64,000 bases of DNA from Akkermansia muciniphila (GTDB lineage: Bacteria; Verrucomicrobiota; Verrucomicrobiia; Limisphaerales; UBA9464), in NCBI GenBank assembly GCA_945861565.1, contig CAMAUY010000002.1, positions 48,806-112,805 on the forward strand, given 5' to 3'. The notes beneath the pieces are model-generated. The model was not told where the DNA came from. It saw nothing but the letters and a program-made list of their open reading frames with translations, and did not search any database. This document shows positions 931 to 9,848 of the stretch, piece after piece. Positions within the stretch are counted from its first letter, which is position 1. Every line of letters starts with the position of its first letter. Position numbers and translations under genes: made by a program.

Positions 931-2037
931 TCAGGCTTTCACCGGTTCGGTCAGTTCCGCCAACTTCGCCGCCCGGATTCCGTCTCCAATCTTCCGGGCG
1001 ATCTCTGGCTTCTCGAGGAGTGCCTTCCGCGCCGCCTCCTTCCCCTGCCCGATCAACTCTCCGTTGAACTGCAACCAAGCACCTTTCTTTTCGACCACAC
1101 CACAATCGATGCCGACTTCCAGCAGACTTCCCTCCTTGTCAATCCCATGATTAAAGAGGATGTCGAACTCCGCCTCGGCAAACGGCGGTGCCACCTTGTT
1201 CTTCACGATCTTCACCTTCACGTGGTTGCCCATCACATTGCCGGCCGCATCCTTGATCGCGTCCTTGCGCCGGATATCGATGCGCACCGACGCGTAAAAC
1301 TTCAACGCCTTGCCGCCCGGAGTGGTCTCCGGATTTCCATACATCACGCCCACCTTCTCCCGAAGTTGGTTGGTGAAGAGGCAGGTCGTCTTGGACTTGC
1401 TGAGCAGCGCCGTGAGCTTCCGTAACGCCTGACTCATCAAACGCGCCTGCATACCCATCGTGGCCATGCCCATCTCGCCTTCCAATTCCGCCTTCGGCAC
1501 CAGGGCGGCCACCGAATCAATCACAATGATGTCCAGGGCACCGGAACGCGCCAATGTCTCGCAAATCGTTAAGGCTTCTTCTCCCGAATCGGGCTGTGAC
1601 ACCAGCAGATCATCGAGGTTGACTCCCAACTTCTTTGCGTAACCAGGGTCCAGCGCATGCTCAGCATCGATGAACGCCGCGATTCCACCCGCCTTCTGTG
1701 CATTGGCGATCAGATGCAGCATCAGGGTCGTCTTGCCGGAACTCTCCGGTCCGTAAATCTCCACCACGCGCCCCCGTGGAACACCGCCCACCCCTAGGGC
1801 GAGATCGATCGCAATCGCCCCGGTTGGAATGACCTCGATCTGCCGGAGGGCCTGAGCCGCCCCCAGCCGCATAATCGCACCGTCCCCGTAGGCCTTGGTA
1901 ATCGACGCAATGGCCGACTCGAGCTCGCGTGCTTTGGCCGCATTGATTTTTGCCGCTTCGGGCAGGTGCGCGGCGGCCTTCGTTTCGGCAATCTTGGATT
2001 CGGCGGATTTTGATTCAACGGTCTTAGCAGTAGCCAT
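931..2037 (-). CDS. recA: Recombinase RecA
   Basis: 368 residues, the normal RecA length plus an Ala/Lys-rich N-terminal extension of about 30 residues. Walker A is GPESSGKT at 96-103, Walker B is [10 protein letters not shown] around 170-179, and the DNA-binding L2 region ([21 protein letters not shown]) spans about 222-242. It catalyses ATP-dependent strand exchange in homologous recombination and activates LexA-type repressor self-cleavage where such repressors exist. The gene stands alone on the minus strand with about 290 bp before the channel gene. A sigma70-like promoter with an inverted repeat in its spacer lies about 35-60 bp upstream, which would fit damage-responsive control. The C-terminus is less acidic than in E. 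coli RecA. Confidence 0.98.
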
Positions 2038-2224: not shown

Positions 2225-3517
2225 ATGAGTTCCGCCAGCTTGACTCCGCGAGTCTGTTTCTCGGCACGCTCTTCCCTACGCGCCGTCGCCGTGGCCGTCG
2301 GGTTGCGCCTCGTGTCTCCAACTCGGATGATCGCTGAAGACCGGGTTGAATATCGGTTCGAGGATTACAATGAAGACGGAAACCGGATGCACATCCAGAC
2401 CCATTCGGCATACTTCGAAAAGGAGCTCAATTCCCGAATCACAGCCCGAGGAACTTTCGTGTACGATTCCATTTCGGGCGCATCGCCCACGGGTGGGGCA
2501 CCTGATTACGGTTCCGATAAGGTTCCCGTAAATCAATTCCTCATCCACGACATCCGACGGGCCGAGAGTCTGGATTTCGCCGTTCGATACGGGGGCATCC
2601 ACATGACCACCCCCCAAATCGCCTACAGCAAGGAAAGGGATTATGAATCCGTTGGCCTAGCCCTGAATCACGCCATCGAGTTCAACCAGAAGAACACCAC
2701 CGTACTGCTCGGGCTCGCCCGAAATTTTGACGAACTTTCGGGACGCTACCAGACAAAGCCAGCGGACAAGGATACCCTCGACGGGATCATTGGATTGACC
2801 CAACTCCTCAATCCGCAGACCTATCTTACCGCGAATTTAAGTTTCGGCTATGGGGAGGGGTATTTAGATGATCCCTACAAGGGAGTGAATTTCTTTTTTC
2901 CCTATCCGGGCACCCGCCCAGAGGACTGGCCGACCGAGGCCAATCTCGCCGAGAAGAGGCCCTCACACCGGTCGAGACAAGTGCTGTTCCTAGGCGTCAC
3001 TCATTTTGTCACGCCGCTCAAGGCAGGCGTCGATGCTAATTACCGCTTTTATCACGACAGTTACGACATATTCGCTCACACCGTGACGCTGCAGTGGAAC
3101 CAGAAGCTGGGTGAAAAAGTCACCGTGTCGCCCCTGGTTCGATGGTATCGCCAGGGCGCCGCACGCTTCTATCAACCGCGCTTCATCGGCGAGGCCGACT
3201 ACCCGGACGGCACCACGGCCGCCTATCAGGATGGCGAGTTTGTCGACTACGAGGGAGGCCCAGCTTATCCCGAAGATCCAGCGGGCTACACGTTTATCGA
3301 CATTCCTGCCCATCCTAGTTCGTATTCCGCGGACTATCGGCTGAGCGAATTTGAAGCGTATTCAATCGGAATCGGCATGCACTGGCGACTCCACGATCAC
3401 GTCTCCTTGGATGCGGCGTATAAGCGCTACGAAATGCACGGCGTCGGCCACATAACACCCAAAGATGCCTATCCAAAGGCTCATGTGCTGACCGCCGGAT
3501 TGGCCCTATGGTTTTAA
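2225..3517 (+). CDS. DUF3570 outer-membrane beta-barrel protein
   Basis: 430 residues. The N-terminal 37 residues look like an export signal, though basic and not ideal. The rest is a run of alternating short beta strands rich in Tyr/Asp (for example YRFEDYNEDGNRMHIQTHS), ending in LTAGLALWF, the aromatic C-terminal strand typical of outer-membrane barrels. Content and length match the DUF3570 family. It is the first gene of a four-gene plus-strand operon with ApbE, TlpA and DUF4266, a grouping I know as recurrent. Its stop overlaps the apbE start by 10 bases. Function is unknown; a role as an outer-membrane partner or conduit for a flavin- or thiol-dependent process is inference. The chosen ATG is the first in frame. 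Confidence 0.85.
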   Translation: MSSASLTPRVCFSARSSLRAVAVAVGLRLVSPTRMIAEDRVEYRFEDYNEDGNRMHIQTHSAYFEKELNSRITARGTFVYDSISGASPTGGAPDYGSDKVPVNQFLIHDIRRAESLDFAVRYGGIHMTTPQIAYSKERDYESVGLALNHAIEFNQKNTTVLLGLARNFDELSGRYQTKPADKDTLDGIIGLTQLLNPQTYLTANLSFGYGEGYLDDPYKGVNFFFPYPGTRPEDWPTEANLAEKRPSHRSRQVLFLGVTHFVTPLKAGVDANYRFYHDSYDIFAHTVTLQWNQKLGEKVTVSPLVRWYRQGAARFYQPRFIGEADYPDGTTAAYQDGEFVDYEGGPAYPEDPAGYTFIDIPAHPSSYSADYRLSEFEAYSIGIGMHWRLHDHVSLDAAYKRYEMHGVGHITPKDAYPKAHVLTAGLALWF

Positions 3518-4545
3518 CGCCTCCCATCCCGGCAGCGTCCCCGGATGCGGTCAACCTGCATCCGCCCGACCTCCGCCCGGTGCACCAGCGAATTGTGGCC
3601 TCGGCGCACGAAGAGGCTCGCGAGGGCGGACACAGCCTGACGTTCCAGGCGATGGGCACGAACTGCCGCGCTTGCTTCTCCGCTCCCCGGGACATCGCCC
3701 GCCAGTACCGCGACGCCCTGCTTCGGTGGGTCGCGTCGTTTGAGGCCCGCTACTCCCGGTTTCGAGAGGACAGCCTGATCTCACAAATCAATCGGGAGGC
3801 CGGCAGACGCTGGGTAACTCTCGACCCGGAGACGGATCGGTTGATGGCGCTTTGCCACGAACTCGTTTTTCTTACAAAGGGCATTCTGGATCCAACTTCC
3901 CTGCCGCTGATCGGGCTCTGGAACTGGAAGAATTCACCCCCAGCGGTTCCGACGCCGGAACAGATTGCCACCGCCCGGGAGCAGGTCGGTTGGCGGAAGT
4001 TGCAGCGCCGTCCCGGGGCGATCTTTCTGCCCTCTTCCGGGATGTCGCTCGACCTCGGAGGTGTGGGCAAGGAATACGCCGTCGACCAAGCCGTGCTGCT
4101 CGCCGGGTCCATGGGTGTGACCGGCGTACTGGTGGATTTTGGAGCCGACGTCCGCGTTGCCGGCCTGCCGCCGGACGGCCGACCGTCTTGGTCTATTGGG
4201 CTCGAAGACCCTCGCAAGCCTGGCTCCACCTGGAAGGGTCTAACGCTTCGGGACGGAGCCGTCGCCACATCCGGTGACTATTTTCGGAAATTTGAAGTCA
4301 ACGGCCGGCGCTACGGTCATATTATCGATCCGCGCACAGGCGAACCCGTCCACAATACCTGCTTGGCGGTCAGCATCATTGCCCCAAGCTGCACGCAGGC
4401 GGGCATGCTTTCGACAGCGGCGTTTGTGTTGGGCGCCGATGCCGGTCTAAAACTGATTGAAGCCCAACCCGCCACCGCCGGAGCCATTGTCACTGAATCC
4501 GGTATCCATCTCAGCCGTCGATTCCATGAATATGCACTCGCTTAA
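3508..4545 (+). CDS. apbE: FAD:protein FMN transferase (ApbE family)
   Basis: 345 residues. ApbE enzymes use FAD to attach FMN covalently to a Thr/Ser of a target protein, normally in the periplasm and with Mg2+. The family pattern is clear: FQAMGTNCRACF near 50, SLDLGGVGKEYAVD near 185, and SGDYFRKFEVNGRRYGHIIDPRTGEP near 255-280. Two things are odd. There is no visible signal peptide or lipobox, so the protein may act in the cytoplasm or the annotated start may be wrong. At the C-terminal metal site, usually D-A-L-[AS]-T, the sequence reads GMLST (Gly299 to Thr303), so the metal-binding Asp is Gly while the Thr remains. It overlaps both neighbours (DUF3570 by 10 bases, TlpA by 20), implying co-translation. 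Confidence 0.93.
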   Translation: MVLTPPIPAASPDAVNLHPPDLRPVHQRIVASAHEEAREGGHSLTFQAMGTNCRACFSAPRDIARQYRDALLRWVASFEARYSRFREDSLISQINREAGRRWVTLDPETDRLMALCHELVFLTKGILDPTSLPLIGLWNWKNSPPAVPTPEQIATAREQVGWRKLQRRPGAIFLPSSGMSLDLGGVGKEYAVDQAVLLAGSMGVTGVLVDFGADVRVAGLPPDGRPSWSIGLEDPRKPGSTWKGLTLRDGAVATSGDYFRKFEVNGRRYGHIIDPRTGEPVHNTCLAVSIIAPSCTQAGMLSTAAFVLGADAGLKLIEAQPATAGAIVTESGIHLSRRFHEYALA

Positions 4546-5059
4546 ATTCAACCGCCGGGAGTGGCTGACCGCCACGGCCAGCGTCCTCGCAGCCACCGCA
4601 ACCCCAGAATTTGTCCGGGCAGCCTCCGTCGGCCCCAAGGCCGGTGACACGCTTCCTGACCTCGCCAGTTTTGGATTGGAAGGAACTCTGCCCGATCTGA
4701 AGGGCAAGACCGTCTTGATCGATTTTTGGGCATCCTGGTGCGCTCCCTGCAAGCGGTCGTTTCCGTCGCTGGCCCAGCTGCATCAAAAATTCGCAGCGAG
4801 AGGATTCCTCGTTCTCGCCGTCAGTGTGGATGAGGAAAAGGAGGACATGGACAAGTTCCTGAAAAAAAATCCCGTTCCGTTTCCGGTGGTGCGGGATCCC
4901 AAAAGCCAGTTGGCCGAAAAGCTCGGAATCGATGTAATGCCCACCTCAATTTTGGTGGGCAAGGACGGCAAAATCCGGATAGTGCATCGTGGATTCGAGG
5001 GCGAGTCGACCCGGAAACAATACCAGGCCGATATTGAGGCCGCGCTTGATTCAAAGTGA
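4526..5059 (+). CDS. TlpA-type thioredoxin-fold protein with Tat-like signal
   Basis: 177 residues from the ATG at 4526. This start puts an export signal at the N-terminus: NRREWLTATASVLAATATP, a twin-arginine-like motif followed by an Ala-rich core. A longer in-frame start at 4457 would bury it. A thioredoxin fold follows, with the active site WCAPC at 71-75 and the cis-Pro loop MPTSILV near 140. TlpA proteins reduce or oxidise extracytoplasmic thiols, for example in haem or copper-protein assembly. Here the partner is likely the Cys-containing DUF4266 lipoprotein encoded 37 bases downstream or the DUF3570 barrel (inference). Tat export, if real, implies that it folds or acquires a cofactor before export. 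Confidence 0.9.
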   Translation: MNMHSLKFNRREWLTATASVLAATATPEFVRAASVGPKAGDTLPDLASFGLEGTLPDLKGKTVLIDFWASWCAPCKRSFPSLAQLHQKFAARGFLVLAVSVDEEKEDMDKFLKKNPVPFPVVRDPKSQLAEKLGIDVMPTSILVGKDGKIRIVHRGFEGESTRKQYQADIEAALDSK

Positions 5060-5096
5060 TCCAGTGTCGAGTTCCTCCGATCGACGCCCTTCTCCC

Positions 5097-5315
5097 ATGA
5101 AAAATCTGATCCCTCTGCTGATTCTAGCCGTGTGCGCCACCTGGGCTGCAGGCTGCAAGAATGTGAAACCGTACCAGCGGAAAACGTTGTCGGACCGAAC
5201 GATGCGCGGGGACCGGGACCCGATGGGGGTCGCGTTATCGGAACACATGTACTTCTCGCGCGAAGCCGCCGCCGGCGGGCGAGGCGTCGGCGGCGGCGGC
5301 TGTGGCTGCAACTAG
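5097..5315 (+). CDS. DUF4266 small lipoprotein
   Basis: 72 residues. A hydrophobic signal ends in the lipobox AAGC (Cys20). The mature part KPYQRKTLSDRTMRGDRDPM...HMYFSREAA is followed by a glycine-rich tail ending GGGGCGCN. This is the DUF4266 pattern, which as I recall it conserves the final CGC and usually has a Ser/Thr in the segment before GG; here that segment reads REAAAGG. It would sit in the periplasm anchored to a membrane by lipid. It closes the DUF3570-apbE-tlpA operon. The two terminal Cys are obvious candidates for a metal or thiol site handled by the TlpA protein. Function is unknown. Confidence 0.85.
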   Translation: MKNLIPLLILAVCATWAAGCKNVKPYQRKTLSDRTMRGDRDPMGVALSEHMYFSREAAAGGRGVGGGGCGCN

Positions 5316-5488: not shown

Positions 5489-6973
5489 GTGAGACGCATC
5501 TTTCAAGTTCCATCGCTGCTGGTCGCCGTGCTCCTTCAGCTTGCACCCCTCAGCCGGACTCTGCCCGTGTCGGTTTTGCCCGTTGCATCGCCCATCGCCG
5601 TCGTCTGGCAGATTCTTCTCCGAGCGGCCGCGGTGGCCGGAAGTTTTCACGCCGTGTCCGGTGCGACAACCCTGGTAAGCCCGGAATCCGCCAGCGGGAA
5701 AGTGGGGGTACCCTTCAACTACAAGGCAGAAATCTTCAGCGACCAATACCTTTCACCTAAATCGTATTCCGCCACCGGCATTACCCCCACTCCGAAGGAC
5801 ATTGCCACGCTTGGATTCGTGATCGACAATCTTTCCGGCCAAATCAGCGGGACGCCGAACAAGGCCGGAACCCACAAGATTAAGCTCACCGGTTGGCATA
5901 AGTCGAATCTCTCGGGCGATAGTGCATCGTATAATATCACGTTCGTCATTAGTCCAGGCGGTACTGCTCCGACGATTTCCCTGCAGCCCCTCGCCCAAAC
6001 CGCAACCGTCGGTGACACGGTCACACTTCGTGTTGCCGCCACCGGAGACTCGCCATTTACCTACCGATGGATCCGCAACGGAATTGAACTTTCTGGCAAA
6101 ACGAATTCGACCCTCACTTTCAGTCCCGTCGCGCTAACGGATGACGCCGACTACTCCGTTCGCGTCACAAATCCCTCCGGCAACACTCCCAGTGCAACGG
6201 TCCATCTGACCGTCGTCGCGCCCCCAGTTTCCCCCGTGATCACGCTCCAGCCGTTGGGCGTCAGCGCCAATTCGGGCGCCAACGTTGAATTCCGGTCGCA
6301 GGCCAGCGGGGCTCCAGCCCCAACCTATCAGTGGTTCAAAGGATCGACGCTTCTCGCCGGTAAAGTAAGTTCCACTCTCTTCCTGCCCAATGTCACCACC
6401 AATGATGAGGGTGCCTACTCCGTTCACGTCAGCAATGCCGGCGGCACGGTCCCCAGCAATCCTGCACTCCTGACGGTCTTTGTCGCCCCCAGCGTCACCC
6501 TGCACCCGTCGGATCAGACAGTGCCGGCGGGGACATCGGTCACGTTCAACGTTGCCGCCACGGGCAAACCCGCCCCGTCCTTCCAGTGGTACCATGGAAA
6601 CACTCTCCTGATCGATTCCACCAATGCCATCTTGGAAGTGACCGCTTCCGACTCAACAATGGGATCGTACCACGCCGTTGCGAGCAATGTCGCCGGCACT
6701 GCCCTCAGCACTTCCGCCTCTCTGACGTTGGAGCCAACGGTCGTGCTGACCGTTCCACCACTTCATCTGATTTCGGTGGGCGAGACCGTTTCCGTGCTGG
6801 AGTTCACAGCCTCGCCCGGAGGCGCGTATGTGATCGAATATCTGGATACGCTCCACGGCACCCGCTGGGCACCCGGTCCAACGCTGTCGAACAGCACCGG
6901 GTCCGTCTTCGTCGAAGTGCCCAGTGGTGAAGTCGGAGCTCGTTTTTGGAGGGTCCGATTGGGCACGAATTAA
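5489..6973 (+). CDS. Secreted protein with putative-Ig and three Ig-like domains
   Basis: 494 residues from a GTG. A hydrophobic N-terminus (about 1-52) leads to a putative-Ig (He_PIG-like) module around 60-150 with the ending NLSGQISGTPNKAGTHKIKLTG. Three Ig-like repeats follow, each built on '[IV]xLQPxxxxxxxGxxVxxxxxA.G.P.P.[FY].W' and ending 'YSVxVSNxxG' (about 160-245, 250-332, 334-415). The C-terminal module ends in GARFWRVRLGTN, a form common on secreted Verrucomicrobia proteins. It is probably a surface or extracellular adhesion or scaffold protein. There is no catalytic motif. The start is uncertain because the first 25 residues are unusual for a signal peptide. It is convergent with metF. 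Confidence 0.75.
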   Translation: MRRIFQVPSLLVAVLLQLAPLSRTLPVSVLPVASPIAVVWQILLRAAAVAGSFHAVSGATTLVSPESASGKVGVPFNYKAEIFSDQYLSPKSYSATGITPTPKDIATLGFVIDNLSGQISGTPNKAGTHKIKLTGWHKSNLSGDSASYNITFVISPGGTAPTISLQPLAQTATVGDTVTLRVAATGDSPFTYRWIRNGIELSGKTNSTLTFSPVALTDDADYSVRVTNPSGNTPSATVHLTVVAPPVSPVITLQPLGVSANSGANVEFRSQASGAPAPTYQWFKGSTLLAGKVSSTLFLPNVTTNDEGAYSVHVSNAGGTVPSNPALLTVFVAPSVTLHPSDQTVPAGTSVTFNVAATGKPAPSFQWYHGNTLLIDSTNAILEVTASDSTMGSYHAVASNVAGTALSTSASLTLEPTVVLTVPPLHLISVGETVSVLEFTASPGGAYVIEYLDTLHGTRWAPGPTLSNSTGSVFVEVPSGEVGARFWRVRLGTN

Positions 6974-7024: not shown

Positions 7025-7918
7025 TCAAGCAAGGCCTAGATTTCTCACCACTTGGACTGCGGACCTCGCCCTGTTTAGCGTATAGAAGTGGATCCCAGGA
7101 GCGCCTTCCCGAAGCAGTTCCTCGCACTGGCGTGTGGCGTACTCAATGCCATATCGAGTTACCGCTTCGTCGTCGTCTCCCAACTCCTCCAGCCGCTGCA
7201 AAAATGCCGCCGGCAGACGCGCACCACACATCTCGGTAAACTTCTTCGTCTGATTCCGCGACAGCACCGGCAGGATACCTGGAATCAAGGGAACCGTTAC
7301 TCCCAAGTTCCGCGTCAGGTGTTCCCGAAAGGCAAAGTAATCCGCGTTGTCAAAAAATAGCTGTGTTACGACAAAATCAGCCCCGGCAGCAATCTTTTCG
7401 CGCAGATGCCCCCAATCTACGTGTTTCCCTTCCGATTGAGCGACGTGTCCTTCAGGAAATCCCGCCGTTCCCACGGTGAAACCGCCCAGATCGTGCAGGT
7501 ATCGGACCAATTCAGCCGAATATCGAAAGCCACCTTCGGTCGCCACCCAGTCGCCCGTTCCACCCGGCGGATCTCCTCGCAACGCCAGAATATTGTGAAC
7601 GCCCCGCGACCGCGCCTCATCGATCACCGACCGCAGCTGCTCCCGCGTCGCATTCACGCAGGTCAGGTGCATCATCGTCGTAAGGTCAAACTCCCGCTGG
7701 ATGCGATCCACAATTGCGAGCGTCTTCTCACGCGTGCTCCCACCCGCCCCATACGTCACAGAACAATAGTCGAACCGGCCCTCCTTCAACATGGGAAGGG
7801 TCTTCTCGAAAAGCGTCCGGTCGCCGTCATCGGACTTGGGCGGAAAGAACTCGATCGAAATCGACGGCCGCCCGAGTCGAGCGTTCGCAACATGAATATC
7901 ATGAATCGATTGAACCAT
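7025..7918 (-). CDS. metF: Methylenetetrahydrofolate reductase
   Basis: 297 residues, the normal bacterial MetF size (flavin TIM barrel). SIEFFPPKSDDGDRTLF near 22-38 contains the conserved catalytic Glu. VTYGAGGSTREKTL lies near 60, NILALRGDPPGG near 112 (flavin/folate region), and FVVTQLFFDNADYFAF near 180. It reduces 5,10-methylene-THF to 5-methyl-THF for methionine synthesis. It is a single gene on the minus strand, convergent with the Ig-protein gene. A near-perfect inverted repeat lies 42-69 bases upstream and may be its operator. Confidence 0.96.
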   Translation of the reverse strand: MVQSIHDIHVANARLGRPSISIEFFPPKSDDGDRTLFEKTLPMLKEGRFDYCSVTYGAGGSTREKTLAIVDRIQREFDLTTMMHLTCVNATREQLRSVIDEARSRGVHNILALRGDPPGGTGDWVATEGGFRYSAELVRYLHDLGGFTVGTAGFPEGHVAQSEGKHVDWGHLREKIAAGADFVVTQLFFDNADYFAFREHLTRNLGVTVPLIPGILPVLSRNQTKKFTEMCGARLPAAFLQRLEELGDDDEAVTRYGIEYATRQCEELLREGAPGIHFYTLNRARSAVQVVRNLGLA

Positions 7919-8090: not shown

Positions 8091-9848
8091 ATGGATAAGG
8101 ATCACGTAGCTGCGGTCCTGACAGAAATCGGCACGCTGCTCGAACTAAAGGGCGAAAACCCCTTCAAAACGCGCGCCTACGTCAACGCCGCCCGAATGTT
8201 GGAGGGACTGAACGAACCTCTGGAGAAGGTCGTCACGGAAAAGCGCCTTGGCAATCTCAAGGGCGTTGGTGACGCACTCGTGGAGAAGATCACCACGCTC
8301 GTAACTACGGGCCGGTTGCCGTATTACGAAGAACTCAAGGCCTCGGTGCCATCCGGTCTGCTGGAAATGCTAGAGCTCCAGGGCCTGGGACCGAAGAAGG
8401 TCAAGAGACTGCACGACGAGCTAGCGATCACAGGCGTCGAACAGCTTGAGGCCGCGGCCCGAGCGGGAAAAATCGCTCGTCTCGAAGGTTTCGGTGAAAA
8501 AACCCAAACCCGAATCCTCGAAGCCATCGCTTTCAAACGCCAGTTCGCCTCCCGGCATCGCCTGGCCAGCGCGCTCACGGCGGCGGATCCCATCGTAGAA
8601 TCGCTACGCTCTCACCCGGATGTTTTGCGATGTTCAACCGCCGGCAGCCTTCGGCGTTGGAAGGAAGTCATCGGTGACATCGACTTCGTCGTGTCTTCGA
8701 AGAAGCCCCTGGCCGTCCTCCAGCATTTCGTCACCCAGCCCGGAGTTCTGCAGGTGCTCGCGCATGGAGACACCAAGGCCAGCGTCTTGCTCAACGGTGG
8801 CATCCAGGCCGACCTTCGCGTGGTGAGTGAAACCGAGTATCCCTTCGCCCTCGCCTATTTCACCGGCAGCAAGGAACACAATATCGTTATGCGTCAGCGT
8901 GCCATTGCCCGCGGCCTTCGTCTCAACGAGTACGGCTTATTCCGATCCACCGAAGAAACTCGCGACCCGGACCTGCGGATCTCCTGCAACAGCGAGGAGG
9001 AACTCTACCAGAACTTAGGTCTCCCATTCATCGCCCCCGAACTGCGCGAAGACCACGGCGAATTCGCCGCCGGAGAATCCCATACGTTGCCGCGATTGAT
9101 GGAATGGACCGACCTTCGGGGGTCCCTCCACAACCATTCAAACTGGAGTGACGGGCGGAACACCCTCGAAGACATCGTCCAACATACCTCGGACCTGGGC
9201 CTGGAATACTGGGCCATCACGGACCATTCCCGCGCCAGCTTTCAAGCCAATGGGCTCGATCCGAAACGACTGCGTCAGCAGCTCGAATCGGTCGCGCAAA
9301 TCAATCGATCCCTGGCCGATGAAGGCACGGCGTTTCGGCTGCTCACCGGCACAGAAGTCGATATTCTCAAGGACGGCCTGGACTTCCCGGACGATCTCCT
9401 CTCGCAACTGGAGGTGGTTGTTGCCAGCCTGCATGTGCCAGCCAGTGATGAAGCGGAAAATACGCGCCGATTGATCGCCGCCGCAGAGAATCCCTTCGTC
9501 CACATGCTGGGACACCCCACCGGGCGTCTTCTCCTCGAACGGGATGCGTATAAGGTCAACATTCAAGCCGTCATTGACGCCTGCGCCGAGACCGGAACCT
9601 GGATCGAATTGAATGCGTCCCCGTACCGTTTAGATCTCGATTGGCGGCACTGGAATTACGCAAAGTCCAAAGGGGCGCGCTGCGTAATCAACTGTGATGC
9701 CCACCGGTTGGAGCACGTCCAGTTCCTTCGCCTGGGGGCGGCCATCGCCCGGAAAGGATGGCTGGAGAAACCGGATGTTATCAACACGCTTCCTCTCGCA
9801 GCCCTCCGCAAGGCCCTCGGCAAGAAACGGACGGCGGCCGGTTCCTGA
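8091..9848 (+). CDS. polX: DNA polymerase/3'-5' exonuclease PolX
   Basis: 585 residues, the usual PolX length. The N-terminal family X polymerase has helix-hairpin-helix segments (LKGVGDALVEKI near 56, LQGLGPKKVKRL near 100). The catalytic Asp pair is in GDIDFVV (195-201) and the third Asp is in QADLRVV (241). The C-terminal PHP domain starts with HNHSNWSDG (347-355) and continues with ITDHS, GTEVDIL, LGHPTGR and NCDAHR, which provide the metal ligands. It fills short gaps during base-excision repair, and the PHP part trims 3' ends. It is a single plus-strand gene, with the stop 13 bases from the convergent prepilin gene. Confidence 0.96.
   Translation: MDKDHVAAVLTEIGTLLELKGENPFKTRAYVNAARMLEGLNEPLEKVVTEKRLGNLKGVGDALVEKITTLVTTGRLPYYEELKASVPSGLLEMLELQGLGPKKVKRLHDELAITGVEQLEAAARAGKIARLEGFGEKTQTRILEAIAFKRQFASRHRLASALTAADPIVESLRSHPDVLRCSTAGSLRRWKEVIGDIDFVVSSKKPLAVLQHFVTQPGVLQVLAHGDTKASVLLNGGIQADLRVVSETEYPFALAYFTGSKEHNIVMRQRAIARGLRLNEYGLFRSTEETRDPDLRISCNSEEELYQNLGLPFIAPELREDHGEFAAGESHTLPRLMEWTDLRGSLHNHSNWSDGRNTLEDIVQHTSDLGLEYWAITDHSRASFQANGLDPKRLRQQLESVAQINRSLADEGTAFRLLTGTEVDILKDGLDFPDDLLSQLEVVVASLHVPASDEAENTRRLIAAAENPFVHMLGHPTGRLLLERDAYKVNIQAVIDACAETGTWIELNASPYRLDLDWRHWNYAKSKGARCVINCDAHRLEHVQFLRLGAAIARKGWLEKPDVINTLPLAALRKALGKKRTAAGS

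Follow-up and report, generated by a model that had tools for sequence, protein, structure and literature searches.

The window analysed here is a 64,000-nucleotide stretch of the Akkermansia muciniphila assembly GCA_945861565.1 (contig CAMAUY010000002.1, positions 48,806 to 112,805). It contains a same-strand cluster of DUF3570, ApbE, TlpA and DUF4266 genes that extends past DUF4266 into a fifth gene encoding an immunoglobulin (Ig)-domain protein. Judged by its gene families, this cluster belongs to an already described system (Meheust et al. 2021, PMC8238504) and represents the Verrucomicrobiota version of it. We favour, with a probability of about 0.55, a five-gene variant in which an ApbE without recognisable export signal flavinylates the precursor of the DUF3570 barrel, likely in the cytosol, and likely also the fifth, Ig-domain protein, before either is exported. 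Taken separately, cytosolic flavinylation of the barrel appears quite probable, and the odds that the fifth protein is a second ApbE substrate are about even. Three aspects go beyond the literature found: a clade of signal-less ApbE proteins, an outward-facing flavin loop in a 16-strand barrel model, and the Ig-domain fifth gene. The genes and sites are as follows.

2225..3517, + strand: DUF3570 beta-barrel of the outer membrane, with a signal at the N-terminus; predicted substrate of ApbE (PF12094, 226 bits, cut-off 25)
2465..2485, + strand: flavinylation motif D-S-I-S-G-A-S, residues 81-87 of the barrel, where strand 3 ends and the next loop starts
3508..4545, + strand: ApbE, FAD:protein FMN (flavin mononucleotide) transferase, without recognisable export signal (PF02424, 243.5 bits, cut-off 25.6)
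4526..5059, + strand: TlpA/ResA-like thioredoxin-fold protein, N-terminal signal of twin-arginine look, NRREWL (Redoxin, 87 bits)
4739..4750, + strand: C-A-P-C active-site pair of TlpA (WCAPC)
5097..5315, + strand: small DUF4266 lipoprotein, AAGC being its lipobox as judged by eye (PF14086, 73.3 bits)
5301..5309, + strand: C-terminal C-G-C pair of DUF4266, in the glycine-rich tail GGGGCGCN
5489..6973, + strand: fifth gene, coding for an Ig-domain protein that is a candidate second substrate of ApbE (Ig_3, 131 bits, three stretches)
5648..5668, + strand: H-A-V-S-G-A-T at residues 54-60 of the fifth protein, a candidate site for either FMN or signal peptidase

Conservation of the cluster

An initial annotation had described four overlapping or closely spaced genes, which family matches confirmed at their places on the forward strand; the barrel gene overlaps ApbE by 10 bases and ApbE overlaps TlpA by 20. 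A search for DUF4266 covered 78 relatives, 47 of them positive, and 288 phylum-wide genomes, 29 of them positive, the window's own genome being in both sets. A total of 70 loci with 73 DUF4266 places were examined (the window itself, 40 loci in relatives and 29 in the phylum sample), and a scan of named genomes led to three loci. The survey covers one phylum, entered through DUF4266, and signal-less ApbE was assessed within that phylum. The order DUF3570-ApbE-TlpA-DUF4266 occurs in 57 of the 73 places, far above chance, and clusters of these families are also reported in PMC8238504; the families do recur together, as the initial annotation had stated. Among the exceptions, eight loci (L039, L043, L045, L051, L062, L063, L076 and also L119) have DUF3570 and DUF4266 with no ApbE among the genes found, L041 has DUF4266 alone, and L135, L136 and L137 start with DUF4266. 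The cluster is duplicated side by side in L051, L062 and L112, both copies being without ApbE in the first two. At L122 (4082-5490) and L066 (985-2810), both counted among the 57, DUF3570 is broken up over several reading frames; ApbE, TlpA and DUF4266 are single frames there, and the broken DUF3570 reflects either decay or an assembly error.

ApbE proteins without a recognisable export signal

To score export signals, ApbE proteins were aligned at the conserved GT, and a 12-residue stretch with a mean hydropathy of at least 1.9 was sought before the core. Such a stretch is present in none of the 59 ApbEs at the examined loci. Nine further signal-less copies, all nine without it, came from an ApbE search in 20 genomes (56 matches, 30 of them examined); one of the nine (G023) comes from an operon that is truncated where its contig ends (L171). 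A tree of 85 ApbEs joins the 59 and the nine in one group of 68 (support 96/94), and 16 of the remaining 17 ApbEs carry a stretch of 1.93 or more, including the lipoprotein-type C10 copy of the window genome and the copies of L135, L136 and L137. The sole ApbE outside the group that has no such stretch is the third ApbE of the window genome (C210), and the exported-type ApbE SL153 forms a long branch immediately outside the group. Among the best 120 of 3687 database ApbE homologues, none reaches a hydropathy of 2.0 and one stands at 1.93. When the same scan was applied to the partner proteins, the stretch was present in 56/67 DUF3570, 39/43 DUF4266 and 27/39 TlpA proteins, and the scan is thus a fair but imperfect signal test.

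All eight searched genomes without ApbE at their examined DUF4266 loci (G003, G005, G007, G010, G019, G022, G030 and G360) possess an ApbE of the same clade elsewhere. The window ApbE can be aligned to two solved chains of the ApbE family, 1vrm and 6nxi, over a region that contains TSGDY and HIIDPRTG, and 13 distinct PDB sequences were matched at E of 0.001 or less, the conserved C-terminal motif region included. Since this ApbE shows no export signal, it likely acts before export, so that the barrel would be flavinylated ahead of its passage through Sec; cytoplasmic flavinylation, which the initial annotation had proposed from the missing signal, remains the natural interpretation. As a separate observation, the signal-less ApbEs, the window copy at 3508-4545 included (GTNC), mostly have a Cys four positions on, counted from the conserved G, which is absent in 15 of the 16 listed exported-looking ApbEs.

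Flavinylation motif and predicted topology of the barrel

The motif recognised by ApbE is D-x-x-[S/T]-G-A-[S/T], and these seven residues suffice for modification (PMC12052999). The initial annotation had seen no usual flavinylation sequence in any operon member, which proved wrong: the barrel's DSISGAS fits this pattern and is near-invariant in an alignment of 121 DUF3570 sequences (the best 120 of 333 homologues and the window), in which D is found in 121/121, S in 120/121, G in 121/121, A in 119/121 and a T/S acceptor in 121/121. A second [ST]GA[ST] motif occurs in one of these 121 homologues, and the window barrel has a single motif.

The AlphaFold2 (AF2) model of DUF3570 is a barrel with a predicted local distance difference test score (pLDDT) of 97.2 and a predicted template modelling score (pTM) of 0.90. 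It is closed, has 16 strands (two short strands being merged and three loop strands excluded from the count), and has both termini on the same side, with short turns there and long loops opposite. BamA, PelB, BcsC and OmpG were matched by fold over residues 1 to 391-393, nearly the whole model, and the Mtr complex chain 6r2q_B appeared at Foldseek rank 23; a sequence search of solved structures with DUF3570 found none. These results support the outer-membrane assignment of the initial annotation as a prediction. Because the motif-bearing loop lies opposite both termini in the model, the flavin is predicted to face the outside.

In 42 of 43 scorable homologues (of 75), the DUF3570 signal (2225-2340 in the window) has a basic residue after its hydrophobic stretch and ahead of the probable A-E/D cleavage point. 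A basic residue at that place in a signal peptide is unusual, and export might be slower for it. A comparable P-x-x-R comes behind the first hydrophobic stretch of the fifth protein.

The Ig-domain protein as a candidate second substrate

An Ig-domain family beside the cluster first surfaced when flanking open reading frames were clustered with no motif condition. The first BLAST cluster (48 loci) was mixed with other Ig proteins and was not used as a count. A profile of the N-terminal module was built from 36 rows chosen with the motif present. The module starts less than 600 bases from the DUF4266 stop in 45 of the 73 places and 600-3000 bases away in five. In the 36-row alignment, the invariant columns are a P, a G, and the G-A of [HDNQ]-x-x-[SA]-G-A-[TS], the G-A being forced by the choice of rows. 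Among 90 distinct members found and aligned by this profile of motif-bearing rows, T/S occupies the last position in all 90, with A before it in 86/90 and, one place further back, G in 74/90 (A in the other 16); the first position is H in 69, D in 16, N in four and Q in one. The strict pattern is present in 67 of the 90, namely 49/62 near the cluster or ApbE and 18/28 elsewhere.

The module follows DUF4266 closely, being present in 45/47 DUF4266-positive relatives and in 0/31 negative ones; the two positive relatives in which it was missed are G028, whose sequence breaks off 118 bases past DUF4266, and G039, which is 66% complete. Among the genomes drawn over the phylum, with 16 first-look candidates scored in each, 20/288 match the module, and matches to most of the module were found in 15/29 DUF4266-positive and 0/259 negative genomes, with five weak partial matches in the latter. 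Neighbours of detached ApbE genes were examined at seven of the eight loci, and the Ig gene adjoins ApbE or ApbE-TlpA in four: directly beside ApbE with no TlpA detected alongside in L187 and L188, and after ApbE and TlpA in L189 and L190, with relaxed S-A-A-T sites. All four loci belong to one genus and may represent few events. Because the Ig gene adjoins ApbE at detached loci away from the barrel, the Ig protein is tied to ApbE and not just to the barrel.

A competing explanation, which we hold possible at somewhat less than even odds, is that of the published one-substrate system: the barrel alone would be flavinylated, and the fifth protein would be an ordinary surface Ig protein whose extended signal peptide is cut at [SA]-[GA]-A|[TS]. 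Signal peptidase prefers small residues at positions -3 and -1, and the fifth-gene site obeys this rule and sits behind a hydrophobic stretch. The form S-A-A-[TS], found in 14 of the 90 module members, also suits cleavage, and, to judge by the conserved A-E/D site of the barrel, conservation at +1 does not have to imply modification. However, the +1 position is T/S and the -6 position H/D/N/Q in all 90 members, although the profile was built from motif-bearing rows, and the window site lies about 33 residues past the first and strongest hydrophobic stretch. No whole-module match was found in genomes without DUF4266, and the adjacency of Ig gene and ApbE apart from the barrel in some genomes also argues against the one-substrate explanation.

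An AF2 model of the fifth protein, made with four sequences, gives much of the Ig region a pLDDT above 85 and residues 13-65, the motif included, values below 50, too low to inform on the motif. The pairing of S and A between barrel and fifth protein (S-S 29, S-A 6, A-A 6, T-A 2, A-S 1) is lineage-confounded and was not relied on. The N-terminal module also heads far longer open frames, up to 2604 residues (G217:C1:3158330-3158677), and one member (L111) has NHL repeats.

The thioredoxin-fold protein and the cysteine-tailed lipoprotein

CxPC is conserved in 65 of 66 TlpA proteins, the remaining one having CTSC. The nearest solved relatives of TlpA are DsbE/ResA, and the PF13899 model gives 15.9 bits, below its cut-off of 27. 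DUF4266 of the window ends in CGCN, and CGC lies one residue from the C-terminus in all 73 DUF4266 reading frames. That TlpA serves this lipoprotein, as originally suggested, is plausible, and redox cycling of the CXC of DUF4266 has likewise been suggested as possible (PMC8238504).

The initial annotation had TlpA exported by Tat. The twin-arginine look of the window copy agrees with this, but the trait is not general: the pattern is found in 28 of the 64 scored TlpA proteins, the window's included, and 33 of the 64, in ApbE-bearing loci, have no twin arginine. These counts also bear on a second, rather unlikely explanation, that ApbE gets into the periplasm in some way not recognised here, such as on a partner exported by Tat, and that it flavinylates the still unfolded barrel there. 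Characterised ApbEs are typically periplasmic (PMC12052999), and a twin-arginine TlpA could act as such a partner. Tat hitchhiking on TlpA as a general route was nevertheless rejected owing to the 33 TlpA proteins without twin arginine, and the detached ApbEs of L187 and L188 have no TlpA alongside.

It is very improbable that ApbE flavinylates TlpA or DUF4266, as the initial annotation had supposed, or that the modification falls on the cysteine tail of DUF4266: the tail is almost invariant, beyond the apparent need of a simple disulfide, but by eye neither window protein has [ST]GA[ST], whereas the barrel has the full motif and belongs to an experimentally shown substrate family (PMC8238504), making it the best target. 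The fifth gene, which lies past the annotated four, may encode the unrecognised substrate.

Proposed mechanism and its weak points

In the favoured five-gene scheme, ApbE would attach FMN, probably in the cytosol, to the barrel precursor at its D-S-I-S-G-A-S site and probably also load FMN onto the matching site of the Ig-domain protein before export. The FMN-bearing, still unfolded precursors would then traverse the Sec channel, whose lumen reportedly accommodates rigid organic tails of up to 2.4 nm (PMC6028853), and the barrel would insert into the outer membrane with its FMN outward. Exported TlpA, reduced by a DsbD-type protein encoded elsewhere in the genome, would keep the CXC tail of DUF4266 reduced; the glycine-rich tail would hand electrons to the barrel FMN, and at the cell surface the chain would continue through the Ig protein with its flavin. 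We infer this chain, from DsbD through TlpA, DUF4266 and the barrel FMN to an external acceptor, from the protein families. The complete combination, namely cytosolic FMN attachment to the barrel and to a surface Ig protein (a new class of ApbE substrate), threading through SecYEG, and flavin displayed outside and fed by a cysteine tail, is less likely than not.

Several observations weigh against this scheme. As to export, the hydropathy scan misses 11/67 DUF3570, 4/43 DUF4266 and 12/39 TlpA proteins and can therefore fail on real signals, and a cytosolic version of a characterised ApbE failed to complement its mutant (PMC12052999). As to the barrel, invariant residues are weakly enriched at its outer face (p = 0.08 overall, 0.04 for strand halves), and it has one motif where the published barrels have two, although we do not take the two-motif trait as required. 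As to the electron source, the lone PF02683 match in the genome (93.3% complete) lies on another contig, with no DsbD linkage to the cluster. The remaining points concern the Ig protein: its motif in the window starts with H where the ApbE substrate motif has D, and the site also fits a signal-peptidase site of the form S/A-x-A|T; 23 of the 90 members do not fit the strict motif (14 have S-A-A-[TS], the L189 and L190 copies included), and one copy at a cluster locus (L064) is without it. The fifth gene was not found within 3 kb of the stretch read at 23 of the 73 DUF4266 places (L066 ends 118 bases on), the module is lacking in all 13 DUF4266-bearing genomes outside the class and in G311 inside it, and three of the seven detached ApbE loci (L223, L224 and L225) have TlpA but no Ig gene, L225 ending 140 bases past TlpA.

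If the scheme is true, a covalent flavin can be fitted before Sec export, whereas ApbE is usually pictured as periplasmic, and it marks the outer face of a Gram-negative barrel as a cytochrome-free electron route across the outer membrane. The analysis also names the Ig module as a new candidate family of ApbE substrates and makes the role of DUF3570 directly testable with two proteins, one motif each, and one enzyme.

Genomic surroundings

The neighbouring genes at 931-2037 (-), 7025-7918 (-) and 8091-9848 (+) resemble RecA, MetF and a PolX-type polymerase by eye, none of them conspicuously redox-related. A plasmid search for related loci gave no match, and in a promoter and terminator scan nothing exceeded shuffled controls.

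Comparison with known systems

Literature searches on DUF3570 and DUF4266 led to Meheust et al. 2021 alone, which describes DUF3570-ApbE-thioredoxin-like-DUF4266 clusters with and without DsbD, 316 of them without (PMC8238504). The present cluster shares with those the four families together, DUF3570 as ApbE substrate, the C-terminal CXC of DUF4266 and a thioredoxin-like partner. It differs in that its ApbE shows, by hydropathy, no export signal of the signal-peptide or lipobox kind, its thioredoxin is TlpA/ResA-like instead of PF13899, DsbD is not linked, and an Ig-domain gene follows. In the published work, the first survey left out genes without a predicted signal, and in the cluster step one or more of the target genes, though not ApbE itself, had to have a signal. 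When coexpressed, the DUF3570 of C. luteolum, which has two [S/T]GA[S/T] sites, was flavinylated by its own ApbE; the construct strategy is described as similar to that of a signal-peptide-truncated pair, and most DUF3570 was found in the cell pellet (PMC8238504). This strategy and location suggest that unfolded, cytosolic DUF3570 can be modified.

No paper was found that joins ApbE, flavinyl and immunoglobulin, although the Ig gene may already stand among the neighbours in the cluster tables of PMC8238504, and nothing was found on flavinylation of an outer-membrane barrel before export. A 2024 paper modelling flavinylated domains mentions the outer membrane, and the legends of its section 5 contain no DUF3570 model (PMC11334425). 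In Klebsiella pneumoniae, a cytosolic ApbE flavinylates a soluble fumarate reductase (PMC12052999). That enzyme resembles the ApbE studied here in having no recognisable signal peptide and in its site of action, the cytosol, which is likely here too, whereas the predicted substrates here are exported.

The MtrCAB systems are porin-cytochrome complexes that serve as outer-membrane electron conduits. The cluster resembles them in combining a barrel with redox partners proposed to move electrons across the outer membrane, and it differs in that flavin and thiols would take the place of multihaem cytochromes, the comparison being one of fold and proposed role.

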